DNA of 64,000 nt from NCBI RefSeq assembly GCF_014137995.1, contig NZ_JACGWV010000001.1, positions 1,116,001 to 1,180,000 of the forward strand, in the 5' to 3' direction. Under the pieces are notes generated by a model. That model saw only the letters and a program-made list of their open reading frames with translations, was not told where the DNA came from and made no database searches. The position numbers and the translations under genes were made by a program. The stretch comes from Promicromonospora sukumoe. GTDB taxonomy: Bacteria > Actinomycetota > Actinomycetes > Actinomycetales > Cellulomonadaceae. Shown piece by piece: positions 26,350-62,037 of the stretch. Numbering within the stretch: position 1 is the first letter of the stretch; each line of letters begins with the position of its first letter.

Positions 26350-26451
26350 GGCTCCACCGTCCGGCGGCCCGGCGCGGACAGGCAGTACCCGCGCGATCCT
26401 GGGTGTACGGGGACCAGGCAGCCGCGAGCCGCTCGGCCTACCGTGGAGGGC

Positions 26452-45241: not shown

Positions 45242-45394
45242 CGGCCGGTGCAACCGGCCGATCTCGCGGACCGGGTGCCGGACCAAGCGCCGGGCCGAGT
45301 GCCGGCCCGGGCGCCGCGCCAAGCACCGCGCCGGGCGCCGCGCAGCCGTTGCACCAGCCCCCGCCCACCCCACCAACCACCCCCAGGTCCCGGG

Positions 45395-45447
45395 ATGTGA
45401 GATCTGGCGGACAGATCGTTGACTTCTATGGGTTCCATTCGTATCTT
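45395..45447 (+). promoter_or_regulatory. Operon A promoter with upstream GAGA-type activator motif
   Basis: TTGACT (45419-45424), 17 bases, TATCTT (45442-45447) is a strong sigma-70-type promoter. ATGTGAGATC (GAGA at 45399) lies just upstream, 43 bases before the -10, the same spacing as at six other promoters in the island. Confidence 0.75.
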
Positions 45448-45499
45448 CTGTGACATCGAGACCAACCACACCAATCCGATCGGAGAGATGTAGAAGGTC

Positions 45500-45628
45500 T
45501 CGGCAGGTCATGAGCTCCGACACGAAGCCCCGGCTGGTCGGACGGCAACCCCCCGCGCGGGTGGGTGCCCCGGGTGAGGACCAGGTCCACCGCCGGCCGG
45601 CGGATGACAACACGCGTCGCTCGCCGAT
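45500..45628 (+). promoter_or_regulatory. SAM-IV riboswitch
   Basis: The conserved SAM-IV core is readable: GGTCATGAG, AAGCCCCGGCT, CGGCAACCCCCC, GTGCCCCGGGTGAGGACC, followed by the 3' hairpin CCGCCGGCCGGCGG. This class binds S-adenosylmethionine and is mostly found upstream of actinobacterial sulfur genes, including O-acetylhomoserine sulfhydrylases, which fits the MetY-like gene in this operon. It lies between the promoter and the leader peptide. Confidence 0.85.
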
Positions 45629-45653
45629 GGGCGAGCAGGTGAGGAGAACGACG

Positions 45654-45776
45654 ATGACCCGGAGCGCCGCCCCCGCTGCCCCCGCCGTCCACGTGTCCCT
45701 GCCGTCCCGGATCGTCCCCCTGCGGGCTGGTGCTGCCCCGCGCGAGGACATGTGTTGTCACTGTTCCTGTCGCTGA
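45654..45776 (+). CDS. Poly-cysteine leader peptide (attenuator ORF)
   Basis: 40 codons with a strong GAGGAGA site before the ATG. The product ends MCCHCSCR, four Cys in the last eight residues, immediately before the stop. Short ORFs ending in Cys clusters act as cysteine-responsive attenuators in mycobacteria: scarce charged tRNA-Cys stalls the ribosome and changes downstream expression. HVSLPSRIV in the middle resembles the conserved part of annotated actinobacterial sulfur-gene leader peptides. It is placed after the riboswitch and 205 bases before the first structural gene. Confidence 0.75.
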   Translation: MTRSAAPAAPAVHVSLPSRIVPLRAGAAPREDMCCHCSCR

Positions 45777-45981
45777 CGGCGACAGCCCGGCACTGACCTT
45801 CCCTCGGCGTCGTACGCCGAGCCCCGGCCGTATCCGGCCCTCACGTTCCTGACCGGACGTCTCTTTCCTGCCTCTCGGCAGCCACGCTCCCGGGTGACCC
45901 CCAGGCGCCGTCGTGCATCCCGCGCGTCGGCCGGGTCCTCCGGGCGCCGTCGTGCCGCCGCAGCCCGAACGGAGCCCCGCC
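45777..45981 (+). promoter_or_regulatory. Untranslated attenuator region between leader ORF and operon A
   Basis: Contains hairpins CTCGGCG-TCGTA-CGCCGAG (45803-45821) and GGCCG-TATC-CGGCC (45826-45839), the latter followed by a pyrimidine-rich tract (about 45855-45872). A 12-base direct repeat GCGCCGTCGTGC lies around 45907 and 45948. A Rho- or hairpin-based decision downstream of leader translation is inferred. Confidence 0.45.
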
Positions 45982-47148
45982 GTGCCGTACCCGTCGCAGC
46001 CCACGTCCCTCTCGTCCACCGGCCCGTCCGCCCGTCCCGTCGTGCTCGGCGTGGACCTCACCTCCGCCGGCGCCCGCCCGGGCGCCCACCGGGCACGTGG
46101 CCCCATCGCGCCGCGCCCGTTCGACGGCGAGCGCTTCCTGCACCTCATGCGGACCGCAGACCGTGGCCTGCTGGACTTCGTCAGCCTCGACGAGGGCTTC
46201 CTGCTCCACCCCGGCCGCAGCCAGGTCACCGGGCGGCTGGACACGGCCGTCGCCGCGGCCCGCGCCGCGCGCGTCACGACGGGCATCGGCCTGGTCGCCG
46301 CCGTCGACACCGTGCACGTCGAGGCGGGCCACGCCGCCGTCGCGCTGAGCAGCATCGACCGCGCGAGCAGCGGCCGGGCCGGCTGGCAGGCCGTGCGGCA
46401 GAGCAGGCTCCCCGAGGCCGACGACGCCTGGGCCGCCCGGGTCGAGCTCGGCATCCGGTCCGTCACCCAGGTGTGGACGGGGCGTCCCGGCAGCGGGTCG
46501 GGCGCGGTCGAGCTCGACGCCGAGGGCCGGTTCCGCGTGGACCACGACGGCATCCGGTTCGCCGTCCGCGGCCGCCCGGCCGCCGGCACGGAGGACGCCC
46601 TGCCGCAGGTGCCGCCGCCGCTCGTCGTGTCGGCGCGCTCCGAGGCAAGCGCCGCGCTGGCCGGCCGCACCGCCGACGTCGCGCGGATCACCGTGACCGA
46701 CGCCGCGCAGGCGGTGCGCCTGCGCCGGCTCGTGCGGGACTCGGCGCTGTCGGCCGGGCGGGACCCCGAGGACGTGCGCGTGCTCGCCGAGGTCTACGTG
46801 GTGCTCGCGGCCGAGCGGGCCAGCGCCCGCGCCCGGCTGGAGCTCGTCGAGGCCCTGGAGGGCACCGCGGCCATGGGCGACGGACTCGTGATCGCCGACA
46901 CCCCGGACGAGCTGGCCACCCTGATCGCCGACTTGACCACGGTCGGCGCCGTCGACGGGTTCCTGCTGCGGCCGTCCTCGCTCAGCTCGGACCTCGACAC
47001 GATCACCGACCACCTGGTGCCCGCCCTCCAGCACGCCGGCCTGTTCCGCACCGAGCGCACGGAGACGACGCTGCGCGGCTCGCTCGGACTGTCCGACGCC
47101 GAGCGGGAGCGCGAGGCACTGCCCACGGGCCGGCTGCTCAGCGCCTGA
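45982..47148 (+). CDS. Divergent short LLM-class flavin-dependent monooxygenase (operon A)
   Basis: 388 residues. GTG 45982 is taken because GGAG lies 7 bases upstream; the longer frame is Pro/Arg-rich and non-coding in style. It has the luciferase-like (beta/alpha)8 layout but differs from the NtaA/DmoA type. Features are LMRTADRGLLDFVSLDEGF, IDRASSGRAGWQAV (canonical proteins have LSGGRxAWN), and the C-terminal RTERTETTLRGSLGL. The closest relatives here are the 50422 and 54670 genes. It should use FMNH2, but may be a non-catalytic partner of a canonical LLM. First gene after the SAM-IV/Cys leader. Confidence 0.8.
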   Translation: MPYPSQPTSLSSTGPSARPVVLGVDLTSAGARPGAHRARGPIAPRPFDGERFLHLMRTADRGLLDFVSLDEGFLLHPGRSQVTGRLDTAVAAARAARVTTGIGLVAAVDTVHVEAGHAAVALSSIDRASSGRAGWQAVRQSRLPEADDAWAARVELGIRSVTQVWTGRPGSGSGAVELDAEGRFRVDHDGIRFAVRGRPAAGTEDALPQVPPPLVVSARSEASAALAGRTADVARITVTDAAQAVRLRRLVRDSALSAGRDPEDVRVLAEVYVVLAAERASARARLELVEALEGTAAMGDGLVIADTPDELATLIADLTTVGAVDGFLLRPSSLSSDLDTITDHLVPALQHAGLFRTERTETTLRGSLGLSDAEREREALPTGRLLSA

Positions 47149-47198
47149 CGAGCACCAGCGCCTGGCCCCCGTACCCCCCCACACCAAGGAGACCCACC

Positions 47199-47555
47199 AT
47201 GACCACCCCTGAGCTGCAGACCCCCGACGCCGCGGGCGCCAAGGTCGCCGGCGGCGCCCTGCTGATCGACGTCCGCTCGGCCGCCGGCCGCGCGTCGGCG
47301 GGCGAGATCCCGGGCGCCACCCTCGCGGACCGGAACGACCTCGACGCGCTGTTCGGGCCGTCCGACAACCCCGCGATCACCCTCGACACGCCCGTCGTGA
47401 TCGTCTGCGGCTCGATCAACGGCTCCGGACCCGTCGCCGAGGCGCTCGCCGCCCGCGGCTACACCGACGTCTCGCACGTCGACGGCGGGTTCCCGGCCTG
47501 GAAGGAGGCGGGCCTGCCCGCGACGGAGGCGGCCGAGCCGAGCGCGGCCCCATGA
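47199..47555 (+). CDS. Rhodanese-like sulfurtransferase
   Basis: 118-residue single rhodanese domain: ALLIDVRSAAGRASAGEIPGA near the N-terminus, active-site Cys in VIVCGSINGSG (about residue 70), and VDGGFPAWKEAGLPA at the C-terminus. The loop after Cys (GSINGSG) lacks the Arg of the classical CRxGxR/T. It may carry a persulfide from substrate-derived sulfur to the next enzyme. AAGGAGA site before the ATG. Coupled to the MetY-like gene by an ATGA overlap. Confidence 0.82.
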   Translation: MTTPELQTPDAAGAKVAGGALLIDVRSAAGRASAGEIPGATLADRNDLDALFGPSDNPAITLDTPVVIVCGSINGSGPVAEALAARGYTDVSHVDGGFPAWKEAGLPATEAAEPSAAP

Positions 47556-48892
47556 CCGGCTTCGCCACCCGGCAGGTGCACGCGCGCAGCGCGGGGCGGG
47601 ACGACGCCGGGCGCGCCACCGGTGCGCCCGACCCCGCGGCGTCGGGCCACGTGGTCCCGCGCGCCACGCCCGTCTACCTGACCGCCGGGTTCGAGTTCGA
47701 GGAGTGGGAGCAGGCCGCCGGGCACTTCGGCGCCGGCGAGGGCTTCGCCTACACGCGCACCGGCAACCCGACCACGGCCGCCGTCGAGCAGCGGATCGCG
47801 GCCCTGGAGGGCGGCGCCGACGCGCTCTTCCTGGCCAGCGGGCAGGCGGCCGTCACCGTCGCCCTGCTCGGCCTGGTCGAGGCGGGGCAGCGCGTGCTCG
47901 CGGCGTCCAGCATCTACGAGGGCACCCGCGGGCTGCTCCTGGAGAACCTGCCGCGCCTCGGCATCGAGGCCGACTTCGTGGACGACGCCGCCGACCCGGC
48001 CGCCTGGGAGCGAGCGATCCGCCCCGAGACTCGGGTGCTGTTCCTGGAGTCGATCCCGAACGCCCGCAACGACCTGCCCGACCTCGCGGCCGTGGCCGAC
48101 GTCGCGCACGCGCACGGGCTGGTGCTCGTCGTCGACAACACCCTCGCGACGCCCTACCTGCTGCGCCCGATCGAGCACGGGGCCGACGTCGTCGTGCACT
48201 CCGCCAGCAAGTTCCTCGCGGGGCACGGCTCGGTGCTGGGCGGCGTCGTCGTCGACGCCGGGACGTTCGACGCGCGCGCCTCGGGCGCGCTGTACCCGCA
48301 CCTGGTGGCGCCGTCGCGCACGGGCGGGCCGAGCGTGGCCGAGCGGCACGGCGGGCGGGCGCGCCTGGCGTACCTGCGCGAGACGGTCGCGCCGCGGTTC
48401 GGCCCGACGCCGTCGCCGCTGAACGCGTTCCTCGTGGGCCAGGGCATCGAGACCCTGTCGCTGCGGGTGGCCCGGCAGAGCGCGTCAGCCCTGGAGGTCG
48501 CGCGCTGGCTGGCGTTCCGGCCCGAGGTCGCGTCCGTGGACTACTCGGGGCTCGACTCCAGCCCGTCGTACGCGCTGGCCAAGCGGTACCTGCCGGACGG
48601 CCAGGGCTCCGTGTTCACCTTCACGCTGCACGGTGGTGCCCCCGCGGCGCGGGCGCTCGTCGAGGCCGTGCAGGTCTTCACCCACATGACCCACATCGGC
48701 GACGTCCGCTCGCTCGTGCTGCACCCCGAGAGCACCAGCCACGTGCTGCGCACTCCGGCCGAACGCGCCGCCTCGGGCATCCACCCGGGCACCCTGCGCC
48801 TCTCGGTCGGCATCGAGGACCTGCCCGACCTGATCGGCGACCTCGACCGGGGGCTCGCGGCCGCCCGAACCACACGCAAGGAGACACCATGA
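47552..48892 (+). CDS. MetY-like O-acetylhomoserine/O-acetylserine sulfhydrylase
   Basis: 446-residue PLP enzyme of the Cys/Met metabolism (gamma) family. Markers are ATRQVHA, YTRTGNPTTAAVEQRIAALEGG, ALFLASGQAAVTVAL, PLP-Lys in VVHSASKFLAGHGSVLGG, and C-terminal GDVRSLVLHPESTSH with LRLSVGIEDL. It would combine sulfide or methanethiol with an O-acylated homoserine to give homocysteine or methionine. Which acceptor is used is not decidable. It sits between the rhodanese and an LLM gene with 4-base overlaps on both sides. Confidence 0.9.
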   Translation: MTGFATRQVHARSAGRDDAGRATGAPDPAASGHVVPRATPVYLTAGFEFEEWEQAAGHFGAGEGFAYTRTGNPTTAAVEQRIAALEGGADALFLASGQAAVTVALLGLVEAGQRVLAASSIYEGTRGLLLENLPRLGIEADFVDDAADPAAWERAIRPETRVLFLESIPNARNDLPDLAAVADVAHAHGLVLVVDNTLATPYLLRPIEHGADVVVHSASKFLAGHGSVLGGVVVDAGTFDARASGALYPHLVAPSRTGGPSVAERHGGRARLAYLRETVAPRFGPTPSPLNAFLVGQGIETLSLRVARQSASALEVARWLAFRPEVASVDYSGLDSSPSYALAKRYLPDGQGSVFTFTLHGGAPAARALVEAVQVFTHMTHIGDVRSLVLHPESTSHVLRTPAERAASGIHPGTLRLSVGIEDLPDLIGDLDRGLAAARTTRKETP

Positions 48893-50241
48893 CCCGCCAG
48901 CAGCACCTCGGCTGGTTCCTGGCCCGCGGCTTCGGGCCGCACGGCTGGGGCCACGACTACCTGGACTGGAACTACGACTGGACCCGGCCCGACCTCTACG
49001 TCGAGTCGGCCCGCGCCCTGGAGCAGGCGGGCGTCGACCTGCTGATCATCGAGGACGCCCCGTCGCTCGGCAGCCCCGAGACCATCGACCTGCGCGTGCG
49101 GCAGGCGTTCGGCGGCCCCAAGCACGACCCGCTGCTGCTGGCCCCGTACCTGTTCGCCGCGACCCAGCACCTCGGCATCGTGCCGACGGTCAACCCGGCC
49201 GCCGTGCTGCCCTACACCGGGGCGCGCCAGCTCGCGACGCTCCAGCACCTCTCGGGCGGCCGGTTCGGCCTCAACCTCGTGACCGACACCGGCAGTGCGC
49301 GGCACTTCTCGGACGCGCCGCCGCTCGGGCACGACGCCGCGTACGACCGCGCCGAGGAGTGGCTCGACGGCGTCCGCTCGCTGTGGCGCTCCTGGGACGA
49401 CGGCGCGCTGATCGCCGACCCGGGCGCCGTCGGGCCCGGCGGCACGCGGACCGGGGGCCGGTACGCCGACGGCGGCCTGCTGCGCCCGGTGCGGCACCGC
49501 GGCGAGCACTTCGCGTTCGACGGCCCGCTCAACGCGCTCCCGTTCGCCGACGGCGCGGACGGCGAGCCCGTGATCGTCTCGCCGGGCGGCTCGGGCCGCG
49601 GGCTGGCGTTCGCGGGCGCGAACAGCGACGTGCAGCTCGCGCTCACGCCCCTGACGGAGCGCAGCGTGCGCGACTACCGGGCCAAGGTGCACGCCGCCGC
49701 CCGCGCGTCGGGCCGGGCGCTGGAGCACGTCAAGGTCCTGTTCGCGATCAAGCCCGTGCTCGTGTCCAGCCCGCAGGAGGCCGACCGCCTGGTCGCGGCG
49801 TCCGCCAACCCCGACGACGGCACGCTGTGGCGCATCGCCGAGCAGCAGTCGAGCGACCTGGAGACCGACCTGACGGCGCTCGACCTGGACAAGCCGCTGC
49901 CCACGGGCCTGTTCGGTGACCATGTCTCCCACGGGTCCATCAAGCGGCTGGTCGGCGAGCACGACCTGGCGACCACGCCGCTGCGCGTGCTGCTCGGCGG
50001 GCTCGCCCGGCTGGGCCGCATCGCCGACCGCACGGGCTGGGTGGGCACGGCGGGCGAGTTCGCCGACCTCATCGAGGAGCTGGGGGAGTGGGGCAACGAC
50101 GGCGTGCTGCTGTGGGGCGACCTGCACCCCGTCACCGTGCACCGCACTCTCGACGAGCTGGTCCCGATCCTGCGGCGCCGCGGCATCCTGCGCACCGAGT
50201 GGGCCGACGGCGGGCTGCGGGCCAACCTGCGCGCGTTCTGA
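48889..50241 (+). CDS. Canonical NtaA/DmoA-type LLM flavin monooxygenase (operon A)
   Basis: 450 residues. Group signature features are GWGHDYLDWNYDW near the N-terminus, ARALEQAGVDLLIIEDAPSLGS, LQHLSGGRFGLNLVTD (flavin/phosphate region), and a C-terminal WADGGLRANLRAF. Relatives oxidise sulfides, sulfones, aminopolycarboxylates or S-substituted cysteines using FMNH2. The 48889 ATG overlaps the MetY stop. The short LLM of the operon (45982) is its presumed partner. A GTGTCAGAC palindrome ends the operon 22 bases later. Confidence 0.87.
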   Translation: MTRQQHLGWFLARGFGPHGWGHDYLDWNYDWTRPDLYVESARALEQAGVDLLIIEDAPSLGSPETIDLRVRQAFGGPKHDPLLLAPYLFAATQHLGIVPTVNPAAVLPYTGARQLATLQHLSGGRFGLNLVTDTGSARHFSDAPPLGHDAAYDRAEEWLDGVRSLWRSWDDGALIADPGAVGPGGTRTGGRYADGGLLRPVRHRGEHFAFDGPLNALPFADGADGEPVIVSPGGSGRGLAFAGANSDVQLALTPLTERSVRDYRAKVHAAARASGRALEHVKVLFAIKPVLVSSPQEADRLVAASANPDDGTLWRIAEQQSSDLETDLTALDLDKPLPTGLFGDHVSHGSIKRLVGEHDLATTPLRVLLGGLARLGRIADRTGWVGTAGEFADLIEELGEWGNDGVLLWGDLHPVTVHRTLDELVPILRRRGILRTEWADGGLRANLRAF

Positions 50242-50263
50242 GCCGTTCCGGTGACCCCCGGAC

Positions 50264-50307
50264 GTGTCAGACCTACAGGTCCCTCGGGTGACCTGTAGGT
50301 CTGACAC
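50264..50307. terminator. Palindrome after operon A (GTGTCAGAC family, copy 3)
   Basis: Perfect 18-base arms GTGTCAGACCTACAGGTC around an 8-base loop; the arm is the same as copy 2. It lies directly before the next promoter. Confidence 0.8.
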
Positions 50308-50318
50308 ATTCCTCCAGC

Positions 50319-50370
50319 ATGTGAGATGTTCCGGCGGACCCCTTGGCAGGGTGCCGGGCGCACCTATCGT
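50319..50370 (+). promoter_or_regulatory. Operon B promoter with GAGA-type activator motif
   Basis: ATGTGAGATGTTCCGGC (GAGA at 50323), then TTGGCA (50343-50348), 16 bases, TATCGT (50365-50370). GAGA to -10 is 42 bases. Confidence 0.7.
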
Positions 50371-50421
50371 CGGCGCCACCGCGGCCCCCGCCCGGGCCGC
50401 CCGACGCCGCGAGGAGCAGCC

Positions 50422-51732
50422 ATGACGACCGACGGTTCTCTCACCGCACCACAGGATCCGGCGCACGATCCGGCCGACGACCCCGCCCGCGAACCGGCCG
50501 CAGGACACGACCAAGCCCCGGCATCCACACCGATCGTCGCCGTCGCGCTCGACGGCGCCGGCTGGCACCCCGCCGCGTGGCGCGAGCCCGGCGCCCGCCC
50601 CGAGGCCCTGACCGACGCCGCCTACTGGGTCGGCCTGACCCAGCTCGCCGAGGCCGGGCTCGTCGACCTCGTGACGTTCGAGGACAGCTTCGGCATCCCC
50701 GTCGGGCCCTGGGACGACCCGGCCGCCGACCGGACCGACCGCGTGCGGGTGCGGCTGGACGCCGAGCTCGTCGCGGCGCGCGTGGCCCCCACGACGCGCC
50801 ACGTCGGGCTCGTGCCCGTCGTGACGGTCACCCACACCGAGCCGTTCCACGTCGCCAAGGCCCTGGCCACCCTGGACCACACCAGCCGGGGCCGGGCGGG
50901 CTGGCAGGTGCGCGCCTCGCCGTCGGGCACGGAGGCGCGGCTGACGGGCCGCCGCGACCTGCCGGAGATCACGCAGGAGGACTACACCTCCGGCAGGGCG
51001 GACGAGCAGGTCGCGGAGCGGTTCGCCGAGGCGGCCGCCGTCGTCGACGCGGTCCGCGCGCTCTGGGACTCCTGGGAGGACGACGCCGAGATCCGCGACG
51101 TCGCCACGCGCCGGTTCATCGACCGCGACAAGGTGCACCGCGTCGACGTCGAGACGCCGTGGTTCTCGGTGCGCGGCCCGTCCATCACGCCGCGTCCGCC
51201 GCAGGGCCAGCCCGTCGTCACCGCGCTCGCGCACGCCACCGTGCCGTACGAGCTGGCCGCCCGTTCCGCCGACGTCGTCTTCGTGACGCCGCAGGACGAC
51301 GCGACGGCGGCCTCGATCCTGGCCGAGGTGCGCGCCGCCGAGGAGCGGGTGGGCCGCACGGGGGAGCCGCTGCGCGTCGTCGCCGACCTGGCCGTGGTGC
51401 TCGACACCAACGGGCGGGCCGGTGCCGAGCGGCTGGCGCGCCTGGACGCGCGGGCGGGCTCGGCCGCCGGTTCCGGCTGGGTCACCGATGCCCGGGTGCT
51501 CGCCGGGTCCGCGGCCGACGTCGCCGACGTGGTCGAGGCCTGGACCGCCCTCGGGTACGACGGCGTGCGCCTGCGCCCGGCCGTGCTGCCCGACGACCTG
51601 GAGGCGCTGGTCACCGACGTGCTGCCGGAGCTGCGGCGCCGCGGCCTGGCCCGCACCGCGTACGACGCCGGCTCGCTGCGCGGGCTGCTGCGCCTGCCGA
51701 CCGACGTACCCAGCCGGTTCGCCGTCGTCTGA
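50422..51732 (+). CDS. Divergent short LLM-class protein (operon B)
   Basis: 436 residues including an Asp/Pro-rich N-terminus of about 45. Same subgroup as the 45982 gene: ALATLDHTSRGRAGWQV, DSWEDDAEIRDVATRRFIDRD, and C-terminal RTAYDAGSLRGLLRL. It also has ITPRPPQGQPVV, the substrate/flavin-loop position that reads PQGxPVI in canonical members. GAGGAGC precedes ATG 50422. First gene of a two-gene operon with a canonical LLM 61 bases downstream. Confidence 0.8.
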   Translation: MTTDGSLTAPQDPAHDPADDPAREPAAGHDQAPASTPIVAVALDGAGWHPAAWREPGARPEALTDAAYWVGLTQLAEAGLVDLVTFEDSFGIPVGPWDDPAADRTDRVRVRLDAELVAARVAPTTRHVGLVPVVTVTHTEPFHVAKALATLDHTSRGRAGWQVRASPSGTEARLTGRRDLPEITQEDYTSGRADEQVAERFAEAAAVVDAVRALWDSWEDDAEIRDVATRRFIDRDKVHRVDVETPWFSVRGPSITPRPPQGQPVVTALAHATVPYELAARSADVVFVTPQDDATAASILAEVRAAEERVGRTGEPLRVVADLAVVLDTNGRAGAERLARLDARAGSAAGSGWVTDARVLAGSAADVADVVEAWTALGYDGVRLRPAVLPDDLEALVTDVLPELRRRGLARTAYDAGSLRGLLRLPTDVPSRFAVV

Positions 51733-51793
51733 CCGGTGCGCGCCACCGGCACCGCACCGACAACCCCGCCCGAGACGTGAGAGCGAGCAGACC

Positions 51794-53176: not shown

Positions 53177-53196
53177 CCCGGGCCTGAGTGTCAGAC

Positions 53197-53260
53197 ACCC
53201 CCGTACGTGTCAGACGTACAGGTCACCCGAGGGACCTGTACGTCTGACACGTACGGGGGT
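53197..53260. terminator. 64-base palindrome between convergent operons B and C (GTGTCAGAC family, copy 4)
   Basis: Perfect 28-base arms (ACCCCCGTACGTGTCAGACG and on) around an 8-base loop. It lies between convergent LLM genes and should terminate both. Confidence 0.85.
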
Positions 53261-53267
53261 GGTGGGG

Positions 53268-54659: not shown

Positions 54660-54669
54660 GGCGGCCTCC

Positions 54670-55896: not shown

Positions 55897-55959
55897 GGGG
55901 ATCCTCCGGATGTCGTCGCGGCGCGCCCCGCGGACCTGTCGCGGACGCCGACCGCGCGC

Positions 55960-56012
55960 AACATAGCCCCGCCCCCGCCGAGCGCAATGGCCCTGCCGGA
56001 TCGTCTCGCCAT
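55960..56012 (-). promoter_or_regulatory. Operon C promoter with GAGA-type activator motif
   Basis: Read on the minus strand: ATGGCGAGACGATCCGGC (GAGA starting at 56007), TTGCGC (55987-55982), 16 bases, TATGTT (55965-55960). GAGA to -10 is 42 bases. It supports the TTG start at 55896. Confidence 0.65.
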
Positions 56013-56072
56013 CCGGTCGCCCCGCCACCCGCGCGTCGTCCCCGCCGACCGTGCCGCCGCCTCCGACGGCGC

Positions 56073-56135
56073 CGTTGACCACAGCAATTCCTGCCAGGGG
56101 GCGCGCGACTCTGGCAGCAACCGCTGTGGTCAACG
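56073..56135. repeat. Imperfect 63-base palindrome in the divergent operon C-nitroreductase gap
   Basis: Arms starting CGTTGACCACAGC pair over 25 positions with three mismatches around a 13-base loop. The gap 55897-56348 (452 bases) holds no gene; it contains this repeat and the two divergent control regions, plus a TATAGT at 56200-56205 that may be another -10. Confidence 0.6.
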
Positions 56136-56266
56136 ACTACGGCGAATGGTCTCTGACGGGAAAAAATCCGACGAGTCAACCAATCCGGCAAAGAGTCCAT
56201 ATAGTGGGCGATCGTCGACGGGAACCCTGGCAGCGGGCGTGGCGGCGCCGCTCGGGCCATGTCCGG

Positions 56267-56296
56267 ATCGTGAGACGACAAAGAGGGGCATTGACG
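56267..56296 (+). promoter_or_regulatory. Weak GAGA-type motif before the nitroreductase
   Basis: TCGTGAGACGACAAAG (GAGA at 56272) followed by TTGACG at 56291-56296. No good -10 is seen at the expected place near 56314 (AGTGCG), so this copy is doubtful. Confidence 0.35.
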
Positions 56297-56348
56297 AACC
56301 GGCCCCGGGCGTGAGTGCGTAGTGGTCCGTCCACCCCACGGAGCACTC

Positions 56349-57407
56349 ATGACAGCCATCGACGCCTTTCCGGTCACTACCCCGACCGAGACCGCTCCCG
56401 CACCCCCGGCCCGCGCGGCGGCCCGGTCCGTCCGCGCACCGCGGGCGCACCAGCACGACCCCCTGCACGACGCCGTGCGCGACGAAGCGCACGGCTCCAC
56501 GCACGACCCCTCCCTCGACCACGGCTCACCCGAGCACGCCGGCCGGCTCGCCGCCGCGCGCGCCCAGGTGGCCGCCCGCTACGGCGTGAGCCCGCGACGA
56601 GCCGACACCGCAGCGCCGCAGGTGTCCGCCACCGTCGCCGCCGCGGCCGACCTCCCGCGGTCCGTGCTGGACGTCCAGCTCGGGCACCGCTCGGTCCGGC
56701 GCTTCCTGCCCGGGCCGCTCGCGCCGTCCGTGCTGCCCACCCTCGTGGCGGCCGCCCAGTCCGCGCCGACGACGTCGAACCTCCAGCTCTGGAGCGTCGT
56801 CGCGATCACCGACACGGCGCGCCTGGCGCGCGTCGCCGAGCTGTCGGGTCAGCAGGAGCACGTGCGCGACGCGCCCCTGCTGCTTGTCTGGGTCGCCGAC
56901 GTCGCCCGCGTGCGCACCCTCGCCGAGCGGCGGAACACGGCCGTCCACGCGACCGGGTACCTGGAGACCACGGTCACCGCGTACCTCGACGCGGCGCTCG
57001 CGGCGCAGAACGCCATGGTCGCCGCCGAGTCGCTCGGGCTCGGCACGGTCTACCTCGGCGGGGTCCGCGACCGGCCCGAGGCGCTCGCGGCCGAGCTGCG
57101 GCTGCCGCGCGGCACGGCGCCCGTCGTGGGCCTCGTCGTCGGCCGCCCCGACCCGGCGGCGCGTCCCGGGCGGGTCAAGCCGCGGCTGCCGCAGGCCGTG
57201 GTGCTGCACCACGAGACCTACGACACGGCGCGGCAGCTCCGGCCGCTGGCCGCCTACGAGCGGCGGATGACCGACTTCTACCGCGAGGAGGGCATGGACG
57301 GCGGCTGGATCGGTCGCACGCTGACCCGGCTGCGCGGGCCGGGGTCGCTGCGCGGCCGGGAGCGACTGCGGTCGGCACTGGCCACGCTGGGGCTGCCGTC
57401 CTGGTAA
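56349..57407 (+). CDS. Nitroreductase-family flavoprotein with His/Asp-rich N-terminal extension
   Basis: 352 residues. The N-terminal 100 are low complexity, with a His/Asp-rich stretch (HQHDPLHDAVRDEAHG). The NfsA/FRP-type domain follows: LGHRSVRRFLPGPLAP, AAQSAPTTSNLQLWSVV, LAAQNAMVAAESLGLGTVYLGG, and the C-terminal YDTARQLRPLAAYERRMTDFYRE-type tail. It is an NADPH:FMN oxidoreductase or nitro/quinone reductase and could supply reduced flavin to the LLM enzymes. ACGGAG lies just before the ATG. It is divergent from operon C. Confidence 0.82.
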   Translation: MTAIDAFPVTTPTETAPAPPARAAARSVRAPRAHQHDPLHDAVRDEAHGSTHDPSLDHGSPEHAGRLAAARAQVAARYGVSPRRADTAAPQVSATVAAAADLPRSVLDVQLGHRSVRRFLPGPLAPSVLPTLVAAAQSAPTTSNLQLWSVVAITDTARLARVAELSGQQEHVRDAPLLLVWVADVARVRTLAERRNTAVHATGYLETTVTAYLDAALAAQNAMVAAESLGLGTVYLGGVRDRPEALAAELRLPRGTAPVVGLVVGRPDPAARPGRVKPRLPQAVVLHHETYDTARQLRPLAAYERRMTDFYREEGMDGGWIGRTLTRLRGPGSLRGRERLRSALATLGLPSW

Positions 57408-57418
57408 GGCTGCTGCGC

Positions 57419-57653
57419 TTCCGGGCGTAATGACTGGGTAGACGGCACACAGCTGCGTGCCCAGCGATTGTGCCGGGATCTGGCCCCGTTCCGGGCCCAA
57501 TGACTGGGTAGATGCCACACCACCGTCTACCCAGTCATTACGCCCGGATGTCGTCTCGTTTCGGGCGTCATCGCCGGGTGCGGCCGGGGGTTGGTCTACC
57601 TCGTCATTGGGCCCGGAAACCAGGTGGTTCCGGGCCCAATGACTGGGTAGAAC
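57419..57653. repeat. Cluster of TCTACCCAGTCATT-family palindromic repeats
   Basis: In the 315-base gap after the nitroreductase: half-element c (57419-57442), half-element d (57489-57512), an oppositely oriented half-element e (57526-57545, followed by a degenerate partner), and a complete hairpin f (57593-57653) whose 26-base arms differ at three positions. Consensus half-site TCTACCCAGTCATTRSGCCC. No spacer regularity of a CRISPR. The remainder of the gap shows no gene. Confidence 0.75.
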
Positions 57654-57722
57654 GTCCGCGCCAACGCTGTCCCGGGGCGGCGTCAACACCGTCCCGCGAC
57701 GGCGCTAGCCCCGCGCCGTCGC

Positions 57723-58286
57723 TCAGATCGCCGTGTCGTCGCCGATGCGGTGGTACGCGCGGTTCTTGTAGACCAGCGGCGAGGCGTCCGGCTGCCCGCC
57801 GCGCTCGGTGAGGCTGGAGGCCAGCGCCCGCAGCGAGACGAGGTAGCTGTCGCCGATCGGGGTGCGCTGCACGACGCGCGCCCGGAACCACGAGACGGCG
57901 CCGTCGATCACGGGCTCCCCGGTGGGCAGGGGTGACCAGCCGCCGTCGGCGAAGCGGTCGATGCCGCTGGTGGCGAAGCGCGCCGAGACGTGGTCCTGGT
58001 GGTCGGCGAGGAAGCTGACCGCCAGCGTGCTGGCCTCGGAGATCGCGGGCCACGACGAGGACGTCGAGGCGAGCGAGAACGCCAGCAGCGGGGGCGCCGC
58101 GGAGACCGAGATGACCGACGTCGCCGTGAAGCCGACGGGTCGGCCCTCGTGCAGCAGGGCGACGACGGCGACCCCGGCGGGGTGGTTGCGGAAGACGGTC
58201 TTGAACTCGTCGGGGCTGAGCTGGGGCTCGTCCTGCTGGGCCAAGAGCTCCTCCAGGGCGGACAGATCGATGTTCTCGGCGGTCAT
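57723..58286 (-). CDS. Flavin reductase-like protein
   Basis: 187 residues with the flavin reductase-like split barrel: FKTVFRNHPAGVAVVALLHEGRPVGFTATSV-type N-terminal half (two strands around VAVV and GFTATS), PLLAFSLASTSSSWP, and LAVSFLADHQDHVSARFA. It likely reduces FMN with NAD(P)H for two-component monooxygenases. Its start overlaps the FMN reductase stop by ATGA, so the two are coupled. Confidence 0.85.
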   Translation of the reverse strand: MTAENIDLSALEELLAQQDEPQLSPDEFKTVFRNHPAGVAVVALLHEGRPVGFTATSVISVSAAPPLLAFSLASTSSSWPAISEASTLAVSFLADHQDHVSARFATSGIDRFADGGWSPLPTGEPVIDGAVSWFRARVVQRTPIGDSYLVSLRALASSLTERGGQPDASPLVYKNRAYHRIGDDTAI

Positions 58287-58861
58287 CGCACGACCTCCCC
58301 GACACCGGCAGCAACAAGCGCCGGCACCACGGCCCGCCGCAGCGCCTCACCACCCCGGTCCAGCCAGGCCTCGATCACGCCGTCCAGGTCGGCGAGCTGC
58401 CCCTCGGTGACGGTCAGCGAGCGGGCCGGCACCACGGCGCCGAGCTCGACGAGCACGGGCCGCAGGTGCACCTCGCCCGCGAGTGCGTGCCCCGGGTTGC
58501 CGGAGACCACGAGCGGCACGGCGACGACGCCGGCGAGGCCGTCGTTGCCGTACAGGTCCAGGAAGGACTTGAGCAGCCCGGTGTAGGCCGCCTTGTAGAC
58601 GGGGGTGGCGATCACGGCGACGGTGGCGCCGGCGAGGCGCTCCTTCGCGGCGTCGGCCGCCGGGTGCTCGGGCGCGAGGATCTCCGCGGCGAACGTGGCC
58701 AGGTCGATCGTCGCGACGTCGTCGATGCCCAGGTGCGCGGCGATCCGCTGCGCGGCCGCCTCGGCGGCGCCCAGGGTGCGCGACCCGGGCCGCGGGTTGC
58801 CGGAGACGACCACGACGGTGGGTGCGGACTCGGTGGTGGTCGGTGCGTTCGGTGAGGTCAT
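58283..58861 (-). CDS. NADPH-dependent FMN reductase (SsuE/MsuE type)
   Basis: 192-residue flavodoxin-like reductase: VVVVSGNPRPGSRTLGAA phosphate loop, IATPVYKAAYTGLLKSFLDLYG, and GLAGVVAVPLVVSGNPGHAL. The family supplies FMNH2 to alkanesulfonate and related monooxygenases and is typically induced by sulfur starvation. First gene of its operon, preceded by a GAGA-type promoter. Confidence 0.88.
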   Translation of the reverse strand: MTSPNAPTTTESAPTVVVVSGNPRPGSRTLGAAEAAAQRIAAHLGIDDVATIDLATFAAEILAPEHPAADAAKERLAGATVAVIATPVYKAAYTGLLKSFLDLYGNDGLAGVVAVPLVVSGNPGHALAGEVHLRPVLVELGAVVPARSLTVTEGQLADLDGVIEAWLDRGGEALRRAVVPALVAAGVGEVVR

Positions 58862-58925
58862 GTGAGGGCTCCTCGCAACAGGTTGAGCTTTGGTGGTCGC
58901 GCGGTGGGCGGTTGACCGTGAGGGA

Positions 58926-58979
58926 GGTATAGGCGGCGAATCGGAGGATGACCAGGGCCAGACCCGGACTTCTCACTAT
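58926..58979 (-). promoter_or_regulatory. FMN reductase promoter with GAGA-type activator motif
   Basis: On the minus strand: ATAGTGAGAAGTCCGGG (GAGA from 58974), CTGGTC (58955-58950), 18 bases, TATACC (58931-58926). GAGA to -10 is 43 bases; the start codon is 65 bases further. Confidence 0.7.
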
Positions 58980-59004
58980 CCGGACCCGTTCGTGGGCACC
59001 GGCG

Positions 59005-60225
59005 TCAGCCGAAGGCGCGCGCCAGCCGCTCGACGGCGGTGCGCAGCTCGTCGTCCGTGCGGTCGCCGTACGCCAGGCGCAGGCGGCGCGCGGAGTCCGT
59101 GCCGGGTCCCGTCACGAAGAACTCGCCCTGCTGGTAGTCGATTCCCTCGGCGCTCGCCCGGGCGTGCAGCGCGGCGGCGTCCACGGCGTCGTCGGCGAGG
59201 CACGGCCAGAGGAAGAACCCGCCCTCCGGCACGGTGGCCTCCAGCTGGCCGGGGAGCTGGGCCTCCAGCTCCGCGACCAGCAGCTCCGCGCGGTGCCGGT
59301 ACAGCTCGCGGGCCGCGGCGAGCGTCGTGTCGAACCAGCCGGGGCGGCTGACCAGCAGGTGCTCCACGAGGGTCTGCACGAACGTCGAGGAGTGTGAGTC
59401 CTGGCGGTTGCGCAGCCGCAGGAACGGGTCGACGAGGTGGTCGGGCAGCACGAGCCAGCCCAGGCGCAGGCCCGGGCCGAGCGTCTTGGTGAACGTGTTG
59501 ACGTGCACCACGTGGTCGGAGTCGAAGAACACGCGCCGGCCCTGGTCGGTGCCCGCGAACCGCAGCTCGCGGTACGGGTCGTCGGCGATCACCACGAACC
59601 CGTACCGCTCCGCCAGCTCGACGAGCGCGGCGCGCTTGGCCGCCGACAGCGTGCCCTGCGACGGGTTGTGGAAGTCGGGCACGGTGTAGACGGCGGCGAT
59701 CCGCTCGCCCTCGGCCAGACGCCGGGCCAGGTGCTCGACGTCGAGCCCGTCCGCCTCGACCGGCACCGGCAGCGTCTCGGCGCCGACGAGCTCCAGAGTG
59801 CGCAGGAACAGCGGGTACGCGGGATTGTCGACGGCGACCCGGCCGCCGCGCTCGACCAGCGCCTGCACCGTCAGCGACAGGCCGTGCATGCCGCCGTTCG
59901 TGATCAGGATCCGGCGCGGGTTTACGCCCTCCCGCTCGGCGATCCAGCCGCGCAGGCCCTCGAAGCCGTGCGAGCCGGAGTACTGCAGCGCGGCGGCGGC
60001 CCCGCCGGCGTCCCAGACCTCGCCGAGCGACTCGCGCAGCTCGGCCAGGGGCAGCGCCGACGGGTCGGGGATGCCGCCGAGCAGGCGGATCGCGTCGGGG
60101 CGCGGCGACAGCAGGCTCTGGTCGCCGAAGCCCTTCGGCACCGTCAGGCCCCGGGCCAGGGCGGACGGGACCAGCGGCGCGGTGGCGGCCGGCGCGTCCG
60201 GGGCGGTCGGGTCGGTGAGCGTCAT
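59005..60225 (-). CDS. PLP-dependent class I/II aminotransferase (MocR-like core, no HTH)
   Basis: 406 residues. RLLGGIPDPSALP, ALQYSGSHGFEGLRGWIAER, ITNGGMHGLSLTVQAL, VYTVPDFHNPSQGTLS, ADDPYRELRF and the Schiff-base Lys in NTFTKTLGPGLRLGW define an alpha-aminoadipate-type aminotransferase. There is no DNA-binding domain. In a sulfur context it might act on cysteine- or methionine-derived amino or keto acids; that is inference. It has its own GAGA-type promoter, divergent from the GlcD-like gene. Confidence 0.85.
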   Translation of the reverse strand: MTLTDPTAPDAPAATAPLVPSALARGLTVPKGFGDQSLLSPRPDAIRLLGGIPDPSALPLAELRESLGEVWDAGGAAAALQYSGSHGFEGLRGWIAEREGVNPRRILITNGGMHGLSLTVQALVERGGRVAVDNPAYPLFLRTLELVGAETLPVPVEADGLDVEHLARRLAEGERIAAVYTVPDFHNPSQGTLSAAKRAALVELAERYGFVVIADDPYRELRFAGTDQGRRVFFDSDHVVHVNTFTKTLGPGLRLGWLVLPDHLVDPFLRLRNRQDSHSSTFVQTLVEHLLVSRPGWFDTTLAAARELYRHRAELLVAELEAQLPGQLEATVPEGGFFLWPCLADDAVDAAALHARASAEGIDYQQGEFFVTGPGTDSARRLRLAYGDRTDDELRTAVERLARAFG

Positions 60226-60298
60226 GTCGTCTCCTCGGGAAGCGGTGGGGTGCGGCCGGCCCGACGGCGGTCGGCGGCCGGGGCGGGTACGGCCCGCA

Positions 60299-60351
60299 GG
60301 TATAAGGCATGCCCGGCCCGACGCCGCCCGGTTTCGCCGAACTTCTCAGTC
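60299..60351 (-). promoter_or_regulatory. Aminotransferase promoter with GAGA-type activator motif
   Basis: On the minus strand: GACTGAGAAGTTCGGCG (GAGA from 60347) and TATACC (60304-60299), 43 bases apart. The -35 is weak (near GGCGTC), which suits an activator-dependent promoter. Confidence 0.65.
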
Positions 60352-60387
60352 CCTGGACGCGATACGGGCGCGAGCCGCTCAAGATCC

Positions 60388-60435
60388 GAGACGTCGCCGA
60401 AGATCGTTGACTCGCGGGGGAGCGGCTCGTAGAAC
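60388..60435 (+). promoter_or_regulatory. GlcD-like gene promoter with GAGA-type motif; leaderless start
   Basis: ATCCGAGACGTCGCCGAA (GAGA at 60388), TTGACT (60407-60412), 17 bases, TAGAAC (60430-60435). GAGA to -10 is 42 bases. The ATG at 60442 is only 6 bases after the -10, at or next to the expected transcription start, so the mRNA is probably leaderless. Confidence 0.65.
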
Positions 60436-60441
60436 CGCGAC

Positions 60442-61935
60442 ATGTCGACCACCACGCCGCCCGCCGCCGCGCCCGAAGCACCCGGAACCCCCGAGGCCCC
60501 CGGAGCACAAGAGACAACCCCGTCCCCGCTCCTCACCGCCCTGCGCACCCACCTCGCCCCGGCCGACGTGCTCACCGCCCCCGACGCCGTCGAGCCCTAC
60601 CGGTCCGACGTCACGGGCCTGCGCGACACCCGCCCACCGGCCGTCGTCGTCGTGCCGCGCACCGTGGAGCAGGTGCAGGAGGTGGCGCGGGCGGCGTCCG
60701 CGCACGGCGTGCCGCTCGTGGTGCGCGGCGCGGGCACGGGGCTGGCGGGCGGGGCGGCGGCGCCGGCCGACGGCATCGTGCTGTCCACCGAGGGGCTGGC
60801 CGGCATCCGGATCGACGCCGACGACCACGTCGCCGTCGTCGGCCCGGGCGCGATCACCGACCACGTCGACCTCGCCGCGCGCGAGCACGGGCTGATGTAC
60901 GCCCCGGACCCCGCGTCATCCCAGATCTCGACGATCGGCGGCAACATCGCGACCAACGCGGGCGGGCTGCGCTGCGTCAAGTACGGCGTGACCCGCGAGT
61001 CCGTGCTGGCGCTGGACGTGGTGCTCGCGGACGGCACGCTGCTGCGCACGGGGCACCGCAGCGTCAAGGGCGTGGTCGGCTACGACCTGGTGAGCCTGAT
61101 CGTGGGCAGCGAGGGCACGCTCGGCATCGTCGTCGGCGCCACGCTGCGCCTCCTGCCGGCCCCCACCGCGGTGCGCACCCTGGTCGCCTCCGTGCCCACC
61201 CTGCCCGACGCCGGGCGCGCCGTCGGCGTCGTGACCGGCTCCGGCGTGCGGCCCTCGACGGTCGAGCTGCTCAACGCCGCGACCCTGGAGAACATCGACG
61301 CCCACAGCGGCACCGACCTCGTGGCGCGGCACGGCGGCGGGCTCGTGCTCGTCCGGACGGACGGTCCGGGCGCCGACGCCGAGATCGCGCTGCTCGCCGA
61401 CGCGCTGTCGGCCGCGGGCCTGGACGCCCAGGTGCTCGACGACGCCGAGGGCGAGCGGTACTACGAGCTGCGCCGCACGGGCCGCGGCCACCGCGCCGAC
61501 CTGTGGTCGGTCGGCGAGGACGTGGCGGTGCCGCGGTCCGCGCTGGTGCCCGTGCTGGAGGCGATCGAGGAGATCGGCCGGCGGTTCGACGTCGACGTGA
61601 CCGCCGTCGCGCACGCCGGCGACGGCAACCTGCACCCGGGCCTGAGCGTGCCCAAGCAGCCGGGCGAGACCGCCCCGCCCGCCCGGCTGCACGAGGCCGC
61701 GGACGCACTGGTCCGCGCCGCGCTCGCGCACGGTGGCACGCTCAGCGGGGAGCACGGCGTCGGCATCGCCAAACGGCACTGGCTCGCCGACGAGCTCGGC
61801 GCCGAGCAGATCGCCCTGCAGCGCGCGATCAAGGCCGTCCTCGATCCGGCGGGCATCCTCGCGCCGGGCGGCTTCCTCGCGGACGTGCCGGTCGACGACG
61901 TGCCGTTCGCCGCCGACGGCACCGCCGTGCCCTGA
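60442..61935 (+). CDS. FAD-linked oxidase, GlcD/D-lactate dehydrogenase type
   Basis: 497 residues. An Ala/Pro-rich N-terminus (1-28) precedes the FAD-binding PCMH domain (VVVPRTVEQVQEVARAA, VVRGAGTGLAGGA, STIGGNIATNAGGLRCVKYG). The C-terminal FAD-oxidase domain has the metal-site HAGDGNLHPG and GEHGVGIAKRHWL. It oxidises a 2-hydroxy acid such as glycolate or D-lactate. A hydroxy acid left after C-S cleavage is a candidate substrate, by inference from location and shared promoter motif. Confidence 0.9.
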   Translation: MSTTTPPAAAPEAPGTPEAPGAQETTPSPLLTALRTHLAPADVLTAPDAVEPYRSDVTGLRDTRPPAVVVVPRTVEQVQEVARAASAHGVPLVVRGAGTGLAGGAAAPADGIVLSTEGLAGIRIDADDHVAVVGPGAITDHVDLAAREHGLMYAPDPASSQISTIGGNIATNAGGLRCVKYGVTRESVLALDVVLADGTLLRTGHRSVKGVVGYDLVSLIVGSEGTLGIVVGATLRLLPAPTAVRTLVASVPTLPDAGRAVGVVTGSGVRPSTVELLNAATLENIDAHSGTDLVARHGGGLVLVRTDGPGADAEIALLADALSAAGLDAQVLDDAEGERYYELRRTGRGHRADLWSVGEDVAVPRSALVPVLEAIEEIGRRFDVDVTAVAHAGDGNLHPGLSVPKQPGETAPPARLHEAADALVRAALAHGGTLSGEHGVGIAKRHWLADELGAEQIALQRAIKAVLDPAGILAPGGFLADVPVDDVPFAADGTAVP

Positions 61936-61985
61936 TCGGCCGGGACGTTTCCCAGGGCAAGGGTGTCTCATTTTTGTGTCTCATG

Positions 61986-62037
61986 ATGTGAGAAGTCGGG
62001 CACAGGCCATGGACGTGCGGCCCCCGGTCGCTACCGT
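61986..62037 (+). promoter_or_regulatory. ABC importer promoter with GAGA-type activator motif
   Basis: ATGTGAGAAGTCGGGC (GAGA at 61990), ATGGAC (62009-62014), 17 bases, TACCGT (62032-62037). GAGA to -10 is 42 bases; the SBP ATG is 42 bases past the -10. Confidence 0.7.

Follow-up and report, generated by a model that had tools for sequence, protein, structure and literature searches.

An island of approximately 17 kb (positions 45395..62037) in the Promicromonospora sukumoe genome holds a gene cluster for organic sulfur use, in which sites resembling operators of the IclR-family regulator NdgR (also LtbR or AreB) lie ahead of the genes. We put at nearly four in five (0.78) the probability that the motif shared by these promoters is the NdgR operator and that NdgR, bound upstream of the -35 element, activates the organosulfur genes. 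In the mechanism that we propose, NdgR would be encoded elsewhere in the genome and would bind each of these operators; its occupancy, activation, self-repression, ligand and the role of a third box at these promoters are what we infer. NdgR is a known regulator, while the organosulfur targets are apparently new. The island lies in a stretch of 64,000 nucleotides (GCF_014137995.1, NZ_JACGWV010000001.1, positions 1,116,001-1,180,000, forward), hereafter the window; genes were named by Pfam and NCBIfam, except those read by eye, and the GC-frame gene calls are rough.

The first-pass annotation had located GAGA at seven promoters (45399, 50323, 60388 and 61990 on the plus strand; 56007, 58974 and 60347 on the minus strand), at 43, 42, 42, 42, 42, 43 and 43 nt, respectively, from its first G to a -10-like hexamer. 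All of these coordinates, strands and distances are correct, and the underlying proposals, a shared motif at a fixed activator-like distance and sulfur genes as its targets, were borne out. The consensus then offered, GTGAGA-N-GTYCGGC, captures a real shared motif but only approximates its letters, since it has no literal match in the window, and it spans only the right two thirds (boxes 2 and 3), the left arm (box 1) having been missed. With this arm added, each site reads box 1-N5-box 2, and all seven fit, in register, the 15-bp two-box NdgR/LtbR consensus KTYCRSMWYSYGRRM, as given in Table 1 of PMC8222616, at 12-14 of 15 positions; the motif, not recognised in the first pass as a site of CysB, CysR, SsuR or McbR, is thus not an unknown one. 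At this level, 12-14 of 15, the seven agree with the imperfect palindrome KTYCR-N5-YGRRM, the outer K-T of box 1 being complete in two. The consensus is loose, being matched at 12/15 or better by 1354 of 127,970 window positions and, among the 350 window GAGAs, by 16. A 12-bp motif CA(T/C)ATAGTGAGA was reportedly described for Corynebacterium glutamicum LtbR by Brune et al. in 2007, and its ATAGTGAGA part also occurs at 58974; we know of no organosulfur island in connection with LtbR.

The first box, TCCCG-GGATG-TGAGA (45388..45402, plus strand, 13/15), with TTGACT 20 nt and TATCTT 43 nt past the G of GAGA, stands ahead of a transcript carrying a SAM-IV riboswitch and an LLM-class flavin monooxygenase gene (45913..47148, plus strand, PF00296; TIGR03860 below cut-off). 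CTCCA-GCATG-TGAGA (50312..50326, plus strand, 14/15), with box 3 GTTCC and the -10 element TATCGT at 42 nt, also precedes an LLM monooxygenase gene, and the weakest of the seven, GACCG-GATGG-CGAGA (56004..56018, minus strand, 13/15), an LLM-like gene with TIGR03860 below cut-off. The box at 58971..58985 (minus strand, 14/15), GTCCG-GATAG-TGAGA with a perfect box 3 GTCCG and TATACC at 43 nt, precedes an operon of flavin reductase and FMN reductase genes (57723..58861, minus strand, PF01613 and PF03358), and is one of just two three-box positions among 127,958 to score 15/15. GTCCA-GGGAC-TGAGA (60344..60358, minus strand, 12/15), likewise with a perfect box 3 (GTTCG) and TATACC at 43 nt, lies ahead of a class I/II aminotransferase gene (59005..60225, minus strand, PF00155), and GCTCA-AGATC-CGAGA (60377..60391, plus strand, 12/15), with TTGACT 19 nt past the G of GAGA, ahead of a GlcD-like FAD oxidase gene (60442..61935, plus strand, PF02913 and PF01565). 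Finally, the palindromic TCTCA-TGATG-TGAGA (61979..61993, plus strand, 12/15) has a partial box 3, TACCGT at 42 nt and, some 13 bp upstream of it, another TCTCA; it precedes the gene for an ABC importer solute-binding protein (62079..63809, plus strand, PF00496; TIGR04028 below cut-off). Several of the -35 boxes had been described as poor, but those at 45399 and 60388 read TTGACT. An eighth site, absent from the earlier list, has GAGA at 56272 on the plus strand: GTCCG-GATCG-TGAGA (56261..56275), with TTGACG 19 nt past the G of GAGA, ahead of a nitroreductase-family gene (PF00881); similar boxes are present in L047, L048 and G011.

As GAGA is common in the window, the sites might be residues of duplicated promoters or chance occurrences with no common regulator. 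YCR stands exactly 9 nt ahead of GAGA at 7/7 sites and at 47 of the 350 window GAGAs (hypergeometric, 5e-7), a statistic to be read with the caution that these letters may have influenced the original choice of the seven. The pattern YCR-N5-TGAGA matches eight times in the window, always within 45.3-62.1 kb, while the same pattern with spacers of 1-4 and 6-12 matches 21 times, only four of them within those limits. Because 61990 reads on both strands, the eight matches represent seven places, one of which, 51779 (plus strand), coincides with the ribosome-binding site of a gene just downstream and was taken as chance. This match and the poor conservation of two of the seven sites (56007 and 50323) speak for coincidence; against it stand the confinement of all eight matches to the island, the fixed -10 spacing and the base-for-base conservation, within diverged intergenic DNA, described below, and we regard it as very improbable. 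A search of the P. sukumoe genome with GTGAGANGTCSGGC at up to two mismatches was discarded as too degenerate (701 matches, 525 in the control); at one mismatch there were 17 matches, four on the wrong strand.

Comparison of orthologous islands showed that other Promicromonospora keep four of the sites almost letter for letter: 58974, 60347 and 60388 are kept in 4/4 aligned islands and 61990 in 3/3, all with unchanged -10 distances. The 45399 site is kept in all eight genomes that have that promoter, of which two were read in reverse complement, 56007 is kept in one of three relatives, and 50323 could not be aligned in the two relatives compared and is present in G008 and L173. Furthermore, the exact string KTYCR-N5-TGAGA-N-GTYC occurs nine times in six of the 13 genomes of the genus, always at island coordinates, versus no occurrence of the reversed control, which again argues against chance; it is absent from G001 and G011, though both carry the 45399-type promoter. 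Random spacing and lack of conservation had been named as signs of coincidence, and the idea of a shared motif survived this comparison, which was run in part. In a Cellulosimicrobium locus (L050), GTCCA-CCCAC-TGAGA lies upstream of a region matching flavin/FMN reductases, with TATACC 43 nt on. At 72 aminotransferase loci outside the genus, YCR-N5-TGAGA was not in excess (72 matches, versus 58-119 for other spacers), while the strict GTCTCR-N5-YGAGAC was found four times, versus none.

The proposed operator would consist of box 1 KTYCR, N5 and box 2 YGAGA; several promoters add, after one more base, a third box GTYCR. Over all sites box 3 is weak: it matches at least 3/5 positions in six of the seven, but also at 145 of the 350 window GAGAs; it is perfect in two sites and scores 1/5 at 45399. 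Its mean score is 3.57 versus 2.29, and a similar excess is seen one base further (3.29 versus 2.04). From its letters, the GTYCGGC tail at some sites fits the third box of some IclR operators, and a three-box operator is probable. Operators of the PcaU type likewise have a third box beside an inverted pair, and the two boxes of the group 2 consensus are linked just as boxes 2 and 3 are here, although the NdgR/LtbR consensus is published as a two-box, 15-bp one (PMC8222616, in part).

The ndgR gene lies away from the island (G000:C2:276129-276845; HTH_IclR and IclR_C, Pfam), is divergent from leuC (itself identified by eye), and was found in all 13 genomes of the genus. In each of them its promoter carries TCTCA-CGTTC-CGAGA within an identical stretch. 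Since this box is placed between -35-like and -10-like elements, NdgR bound there should repress its own gene. Among 30 Micrococcales ndgR loci, 20 have a strict TCTC-N7-GAGA with variable middle bases, 17 of these exactly 30 nt ahead of the start codon. A matrix built from 29 ndgR promoters, all outside the genus, ranked 61990 first, 45399 fourth and 60388 fifth among 127,966 window positions, with 50323, 58974, 60347 and 56007 at ranks 70, 479, 850 and 1182. Strict palindromes number 35 in the P. sukumoe genome, versus nine in the control, with 29 of the 34 viewed lying inside called genes; across the order, GTCTC-N2-ATG-N2-GAGA occurs 70 times, versus seven, many of the 30 loci viewed again lying within genes. 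Of these order-wide matches we therefore relied mainly on the one at ndgR-leuC.

Other established targets point the same way. In Streptomyces coelicolor, NdgR is an IclR regulator encoded beside leuC that recognizes a 15-bp imperfect palindrome of 5-bp arms and a 5-bp spacer, and its targets, branched-chain amino acid and sulfur genes, include ndgR, leuCD, ilvB, cysI and cysM, with ndgR, leuC, ilvB and cysI among the ChIP-seq targets (PMC4340878). In all 13 genomes of the genus, ilvB is preceded by TCTCR-N5-TGGGACC, which agrees with the NdgR/LtbR consensus at 13-14/15. The cysI gene has ATCCA-CTATR-TGGAC in all seven genomes fetched, of the 13 in the genus; this box was missed by the YGAGA scan and seen on reading the alignment, in 7/7 agrees with the S. 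coelicolor ChIP-seq motif better than any other part of the 360 bp, and scores 12-13, values reached by 271 (12) and 36 (13) of 127,972 window positions. A second PAPS-reductase-family (CysD-like) operon gives a mixed picture: YCR-N5-YGAGA was found upstream of it at one of 12 loci, and TTCCR-SCATG-CGATC, which matches the consensus at 14/15, occupies the same position at seven of the 12. The arms differ from those of S. coelicolor (GTYCA/TGGAC) in that the right arm is here mostly TGAGA, with a third box at some sites, and the putative targets here also comprise SAM-IV-controlled genes and those for LLM monooxygenases, flavin reductases and an ABC importer. PMC8222616 puts C. glutamicum LtbR, the IclR-family protein that governs leucine genes, in one group with NdgR; LtbR is known to repress genes for leucine and tryptophan.

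The transcript behind the 45399 box has a SAM-IV riboswitch in its leader (45506..45618, plus strand; Rfam RF00634, 86 bits, gathering 38), followed by a short ORF ending CCHCSCR-stop (45654..45776, plus strand) that, judging by its sequence and by similar endings in several relatives, is probably a cysteine leader peptide. Box, riboswitch and probable leader peptide would act in series, and through this stacking one transcript would answer three signals. All three SAM-IV promoters in the P. sukumoe genome have a box, and across the order, 9 of 30 SAM-IV loci have YCR-N5-YGAGA versus 14 of 1248 control windows, the other 21 being without it. Genomes that yielded no island promoter (e.g., G002 and G003) likewise have boxes ahead of the SAM-IV/class V aminotransferase gene.

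This last observation speaks against a different IclR-family regulator, a paralogue of NdgR with a similar site, being dedicated to the organosulfur genes. In favour of such a paralogue, nine IclR-like matches are present in the P. sukumoe genome, perfect three-box sites were seen only in the island, and the left arms of several island sites are of the GTCCR type, unlike the TCTCA of the ndgR operator. However, S. coelicolor NdgR prefers GTCCA-N5-TGGAC (PMC4340878, in part), so that GTCCR arms are NdgR-like; the next-best NdgR match in the genome shares 38% identity over about 207 residues and lies away from the island; and no IclR regulator was recognised by Pfam among the scanned window ORFs. 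We consider such a paralogue unlikely.

Nor was any regulator gene recognised in the island among the 47 window ORFs searched with Pfam, so that the earlier remark on a missing activator gene holds for the island itself; these ORFs do include a single HTH regulator gene, MmyB-like (25864-27351), which is some 18 kb away from it. This gene and 16 ROK matches in the genome leave some room for a regulator of another family (a ROK-type CysR or SsuR, a LysR-type CysB analogue or the MmyB-like protein), the likeness to IclR boxes then being coincidental. The CysR/SsuR operator, a 10-bp inverted repeat with the 3' half TGAAtnnAAt, was not found on inspection of the seven sites, in agreement with the first-pass annotation, which had not recognised the motif as a CysR or SsuR site; the McbR operator is TAGAC-N6-GTCTA. 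CysR and SsuR are actinobacterial sulfur activators, and CysR sites likewise lie just upstream of the -35 element with a better-conserved 3' half, but these are ROK-family proteins with different operator letters (PMC2580772, in part). As chance hardly accounts for the box register and for boxes at ndgR, ilvB and cysI, we judge another family to be quite improbable, and NdgR remains the preferred regulator.

A broader reading, to which we give somewhat less than even odds, is that NdgR of Micrococcales is a global sulfur activator, as CysB is in enterics: bound to a three-box operator that occupies either of two positions roughly one helical turn apart, it would switch on sulfate assimilation, organosulfur islands and the genes under SAM-IV control, repress itself from a box within its own promoter and so couple leucine and sulfur status, while at the island its control would be layered over that of a SAM riboswitch and a cysteine leader peptide. 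The box centre is predicted near -58 at the island promoters and roughly a turn nearer to the start at the class V aminotransferase gene. Among the matches listed from the open-licence literature (titles and abstract openings), none connects SAM-IV genes or organosulfur islands with NdgR; because the scope was limited to open licences, this absence is weak evidence. What was an anonymous motif can now be tested as a regulon, to learn whether in Micrococcales a widespread IclR regulator, known from leucine and cysteine genes, has organosulfur scavenging and SAM-IV riboswitch genes under its control as well. The promoters form a series along which position is predicted to decide whether one and the same operator activates or represses, and one transcript would, if this reading is true and the probable leader peptide is one, carry three successive sulfur-related controls.

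The seven GAGA sites proposed by the first-pass annotation (45399 (+), 50323 (+), 56007 (-), 58974 (-), 60347 (-), 60388 (+) and 61990 (+)), together with their distances to the -10 hexamer, agreed exactly with our reading of the sequence, which belongs to a contig of a 6.5 Mb genome. A shared motif was likewise present, but the letters proposed for it, GTGAGA-N-GTYCGGC, were too loose, with no exact match in the window. Instead of the random spacing and absence from relatives that would mark coincidence, the aligned islands of three other Promicromonospora displayed conservation and a constant -10 distance: the sites at 58974, 60347 and 60388 are kept in 4/4 sequences and that at 61990 in 3/3, at unchanged distance, while the surrounding intergenic DNA is variable. 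The 45399 site is kept in all eight genomes having that promoter (with an opposite-strand reading in two relatives, loci L129 and L131), 56007 in one of three relatives, and 50323 in locus L173, but not in L047 or L049. In a different genus, at Cellulosimicrobium locus L050, GTCCACCCACTGAGA precedes a region matching flavin/FMN reductase genes, and TATACC follows the G of GAGA at 43 nt, a spacing shared with the island.

In some other Micrococcales, the motif upstream of SAM-IV riboswitches is a clean inverted repeat, GTCTC-N7-GAGAC, and one match of this palindrome falls between an IclR regulator gene and leuC, which is the ndgR/ltbR arrangement. NdgR (also LtbR) is already known as an IclR-family regulator linked to sulfur. 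We found ndgR in all genomes of our genus comparison set (13 genomes judged to be Promicromonospora), where the last 48 aligned bases up to and into its start are identical (13/13) and include ATCTCA-CGTTC-CGAGAC. The strict form occurs in 20 of 30 Micrococcales ndgR loci, its arms fixed and its middle variable, and lies exactly at -30 from the start codon in 17 of those 20. This is the pattern that an autoregulatory operator would show.

The NdgR/LtbR consensus has been published as KTYCRSMWYSYGRRM (PMC8222616). Read with a left arm added (left arm, five bases, then YGAGA), the window sites match it at 14/15 positions for 50323 (arm CTCCA) and 58974 (GTCCG), 13/15 for 45399 (TCCCG) and 56007 (GACCG), and 12/15 for 60347 (GTCCA), 60388 (GCTCA) and 61990 (TCTCA). 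YCR stands at the predicted offset in 7/7 sites, and at the adjoining offsets in 0/7, against a background of 47 of 350 GAGAs. At least 12/15 is reached at 1354 of 127,970 window positions, and in register behind GAGA by 16 of 350; the consensus alone is thus loose, and the weight rests on the register. With a matrix trained solely on 29 ndgR promoters, all from outside the genus, 61990, 45399 and 60388 ranked 1, 4 and 5 of 127,966 window positions, while the remaining four sites were weak (ranks 70, 479, 850 and 1182). It is possible that a paralogous IclR regulator, instead of NdgR, acts here; the GTCCR-type sites among the low-ranking four, however, resemble the S. coelicolor NdgR arm, GTCCA (PMC4340878). 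The sole classical transcription regulator detected by Pfam among 47 window ORFs is an MmyB-like HTH protein (25864-27351 (+)), 18 kb from the island.

Read as an IclR-type operator, the originally proposed motif would correspond to box 2, one base and a third box, and lacks the left arm; a third box can occur in IclR operators (PMC8222616). Only 58974 and 60347, of 127,958 window positions, score 15/15 on the three-box consensus letters, and the exact three-box string has nine matches in 6 of the 13 genus genomes, all at island coordinates, versus none in the control. Box 3 is not universal (45399 has 1/5), and at least 3/5 is found at six of the seven sites but also at 145 of 350 GAGAs. At the importer promoter (about 61966-61993), two consecutive TCTCA half-sites, kept in two relatives, precede TGAGA and may give room for more than one dimer.

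YCR-N5-TGAGA has eight matches (seven places) in the window, all within the island. An eighth box, GTCCG-GATCG-TGAGA (56261-56275 (+)), lies ahead of a nitroreductase-family gene, with TTGACG 19 nt past the G of GAGA and similar boxes in loci L047 and L048 and genome G011. Another of these matches, GCCCG-AGACG-TGAGA (51768-51782 (+), GAGA 51779), coincides with the ribosome-binding site of the LLM gene that follows and was put down to chance.

NdgR ChIP-seq targets in S. coelicolor include ndgR, leuC, ilvB and cysI (PMC4340878). Across the genus, ilvB is preceded by TCTCR-N5-TGGGACC (13/13), and cysI by ATCCA-CTATR-TGGAC in 7/7 genomes fetched (of 13); the latter box, missed by the YGAGA scan and spotted by reading the alignment, is the top match to the S. 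coelicolor motif within 360 bp in all seven. A conserved ilvB leader of about 370 bp with a T-run, starting near the NdgR-type box, is probably an attenuator. A second PAPS-reductase-family operon (loci L371-L382) is a possible further target: it has a YGAGA box in 1/12 loci, which is not consistent, and TTCCR-SCATG-CGATC (14/15 to the NdgR consensus) at a constant place, about position 410 of the loci, in 7/12. Over the 13 genomes, CCNGNATNTGAGA gave 31 matches versus 4 in the control, 22 of them, by reading, ahead of island, SAM-IV or nitroreductase genes.

Order-wide, YCR-N5-YGAGA lies within 120 bp upstream in 9/30 SAM-IV loci versus 14/1248 control windows, and strict TCTCR-N5-YGAGA in 6/30 versus 0/1248. 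In 72 loci outside the genus chosen by aminotransferase, degenerate boxes were not enriched, and strict GTCTCR-N5-YGAGAC occurred four times versus none at other spacers. Locus L207 (genome G100) carries GTGAGACGCA twice in direct orientation before a SAM-IV riboswitch promoter, the copies lying about 21 bp, or two helical turns, apart. Three Agreia loci (L056, L066, L068) share a different element around GAAGGGTTACGC ahead of the aminotransferase orthologue, perhaps belonging to another regulator in Microbacteriaceae.

The 45399 promoter is followed, ahead of the first LLM monooxygenase gene, by a SAM-IV riboswitch (45506-45618 (+), 86 bits), just past which a 40-codon ORF (45654-45776 (+)) ends in MCCHCSCR-stop. 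Several relatives show similar cysteine-rich ends at its counterpart, and it probably encodes a leader peptide for cysteine attenuation. A similar short cysteine-rich ORF (MTKAARISLVTRRHEMPMCAMPTCACDRCRSCQP in this genome), largely conserved in the seven genomes fetched, separates cysI from its NdgR-type box. The genome has two further SAM-IV riboswitches, and an NdgR-type box stands at all three promoters. In the genus, such boxes precede a class V aminotransferase gene (PF00266) and an LLM gene that is alkanesulfonate monooxygenase-like by eye, each with a SAM-IV leader.

In the island, the box centre lies 46-47 nt from the -10, which would place it near -58, taking -12 as the first base of the -10. 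Where clear, TTGAC starts 19-20 nt past the G of GAGA (45399, 60388, 56272 and the LLM SAM-IV promoter), but the interval is 10 nt at the SAM-IV promoter of the class V aminotransferase gene. The two positions differ by roughly one helical turn, the step that an activator which has to face the polymerase would require. NdgR, responding to a putative ligand, would activate from the island boxes; at its own promoter, where the box lies between a TTGC and a TAT element and fits a repressor, it would repress. As far as our literature search shows, three points are new within the open-licence literature: organosulfur and SAM-IV genes as putative NdgR targets, the arm TGAGA in Micrococcales, probably joined by a third box at some sites, and three putative controls stacked on one transcript.
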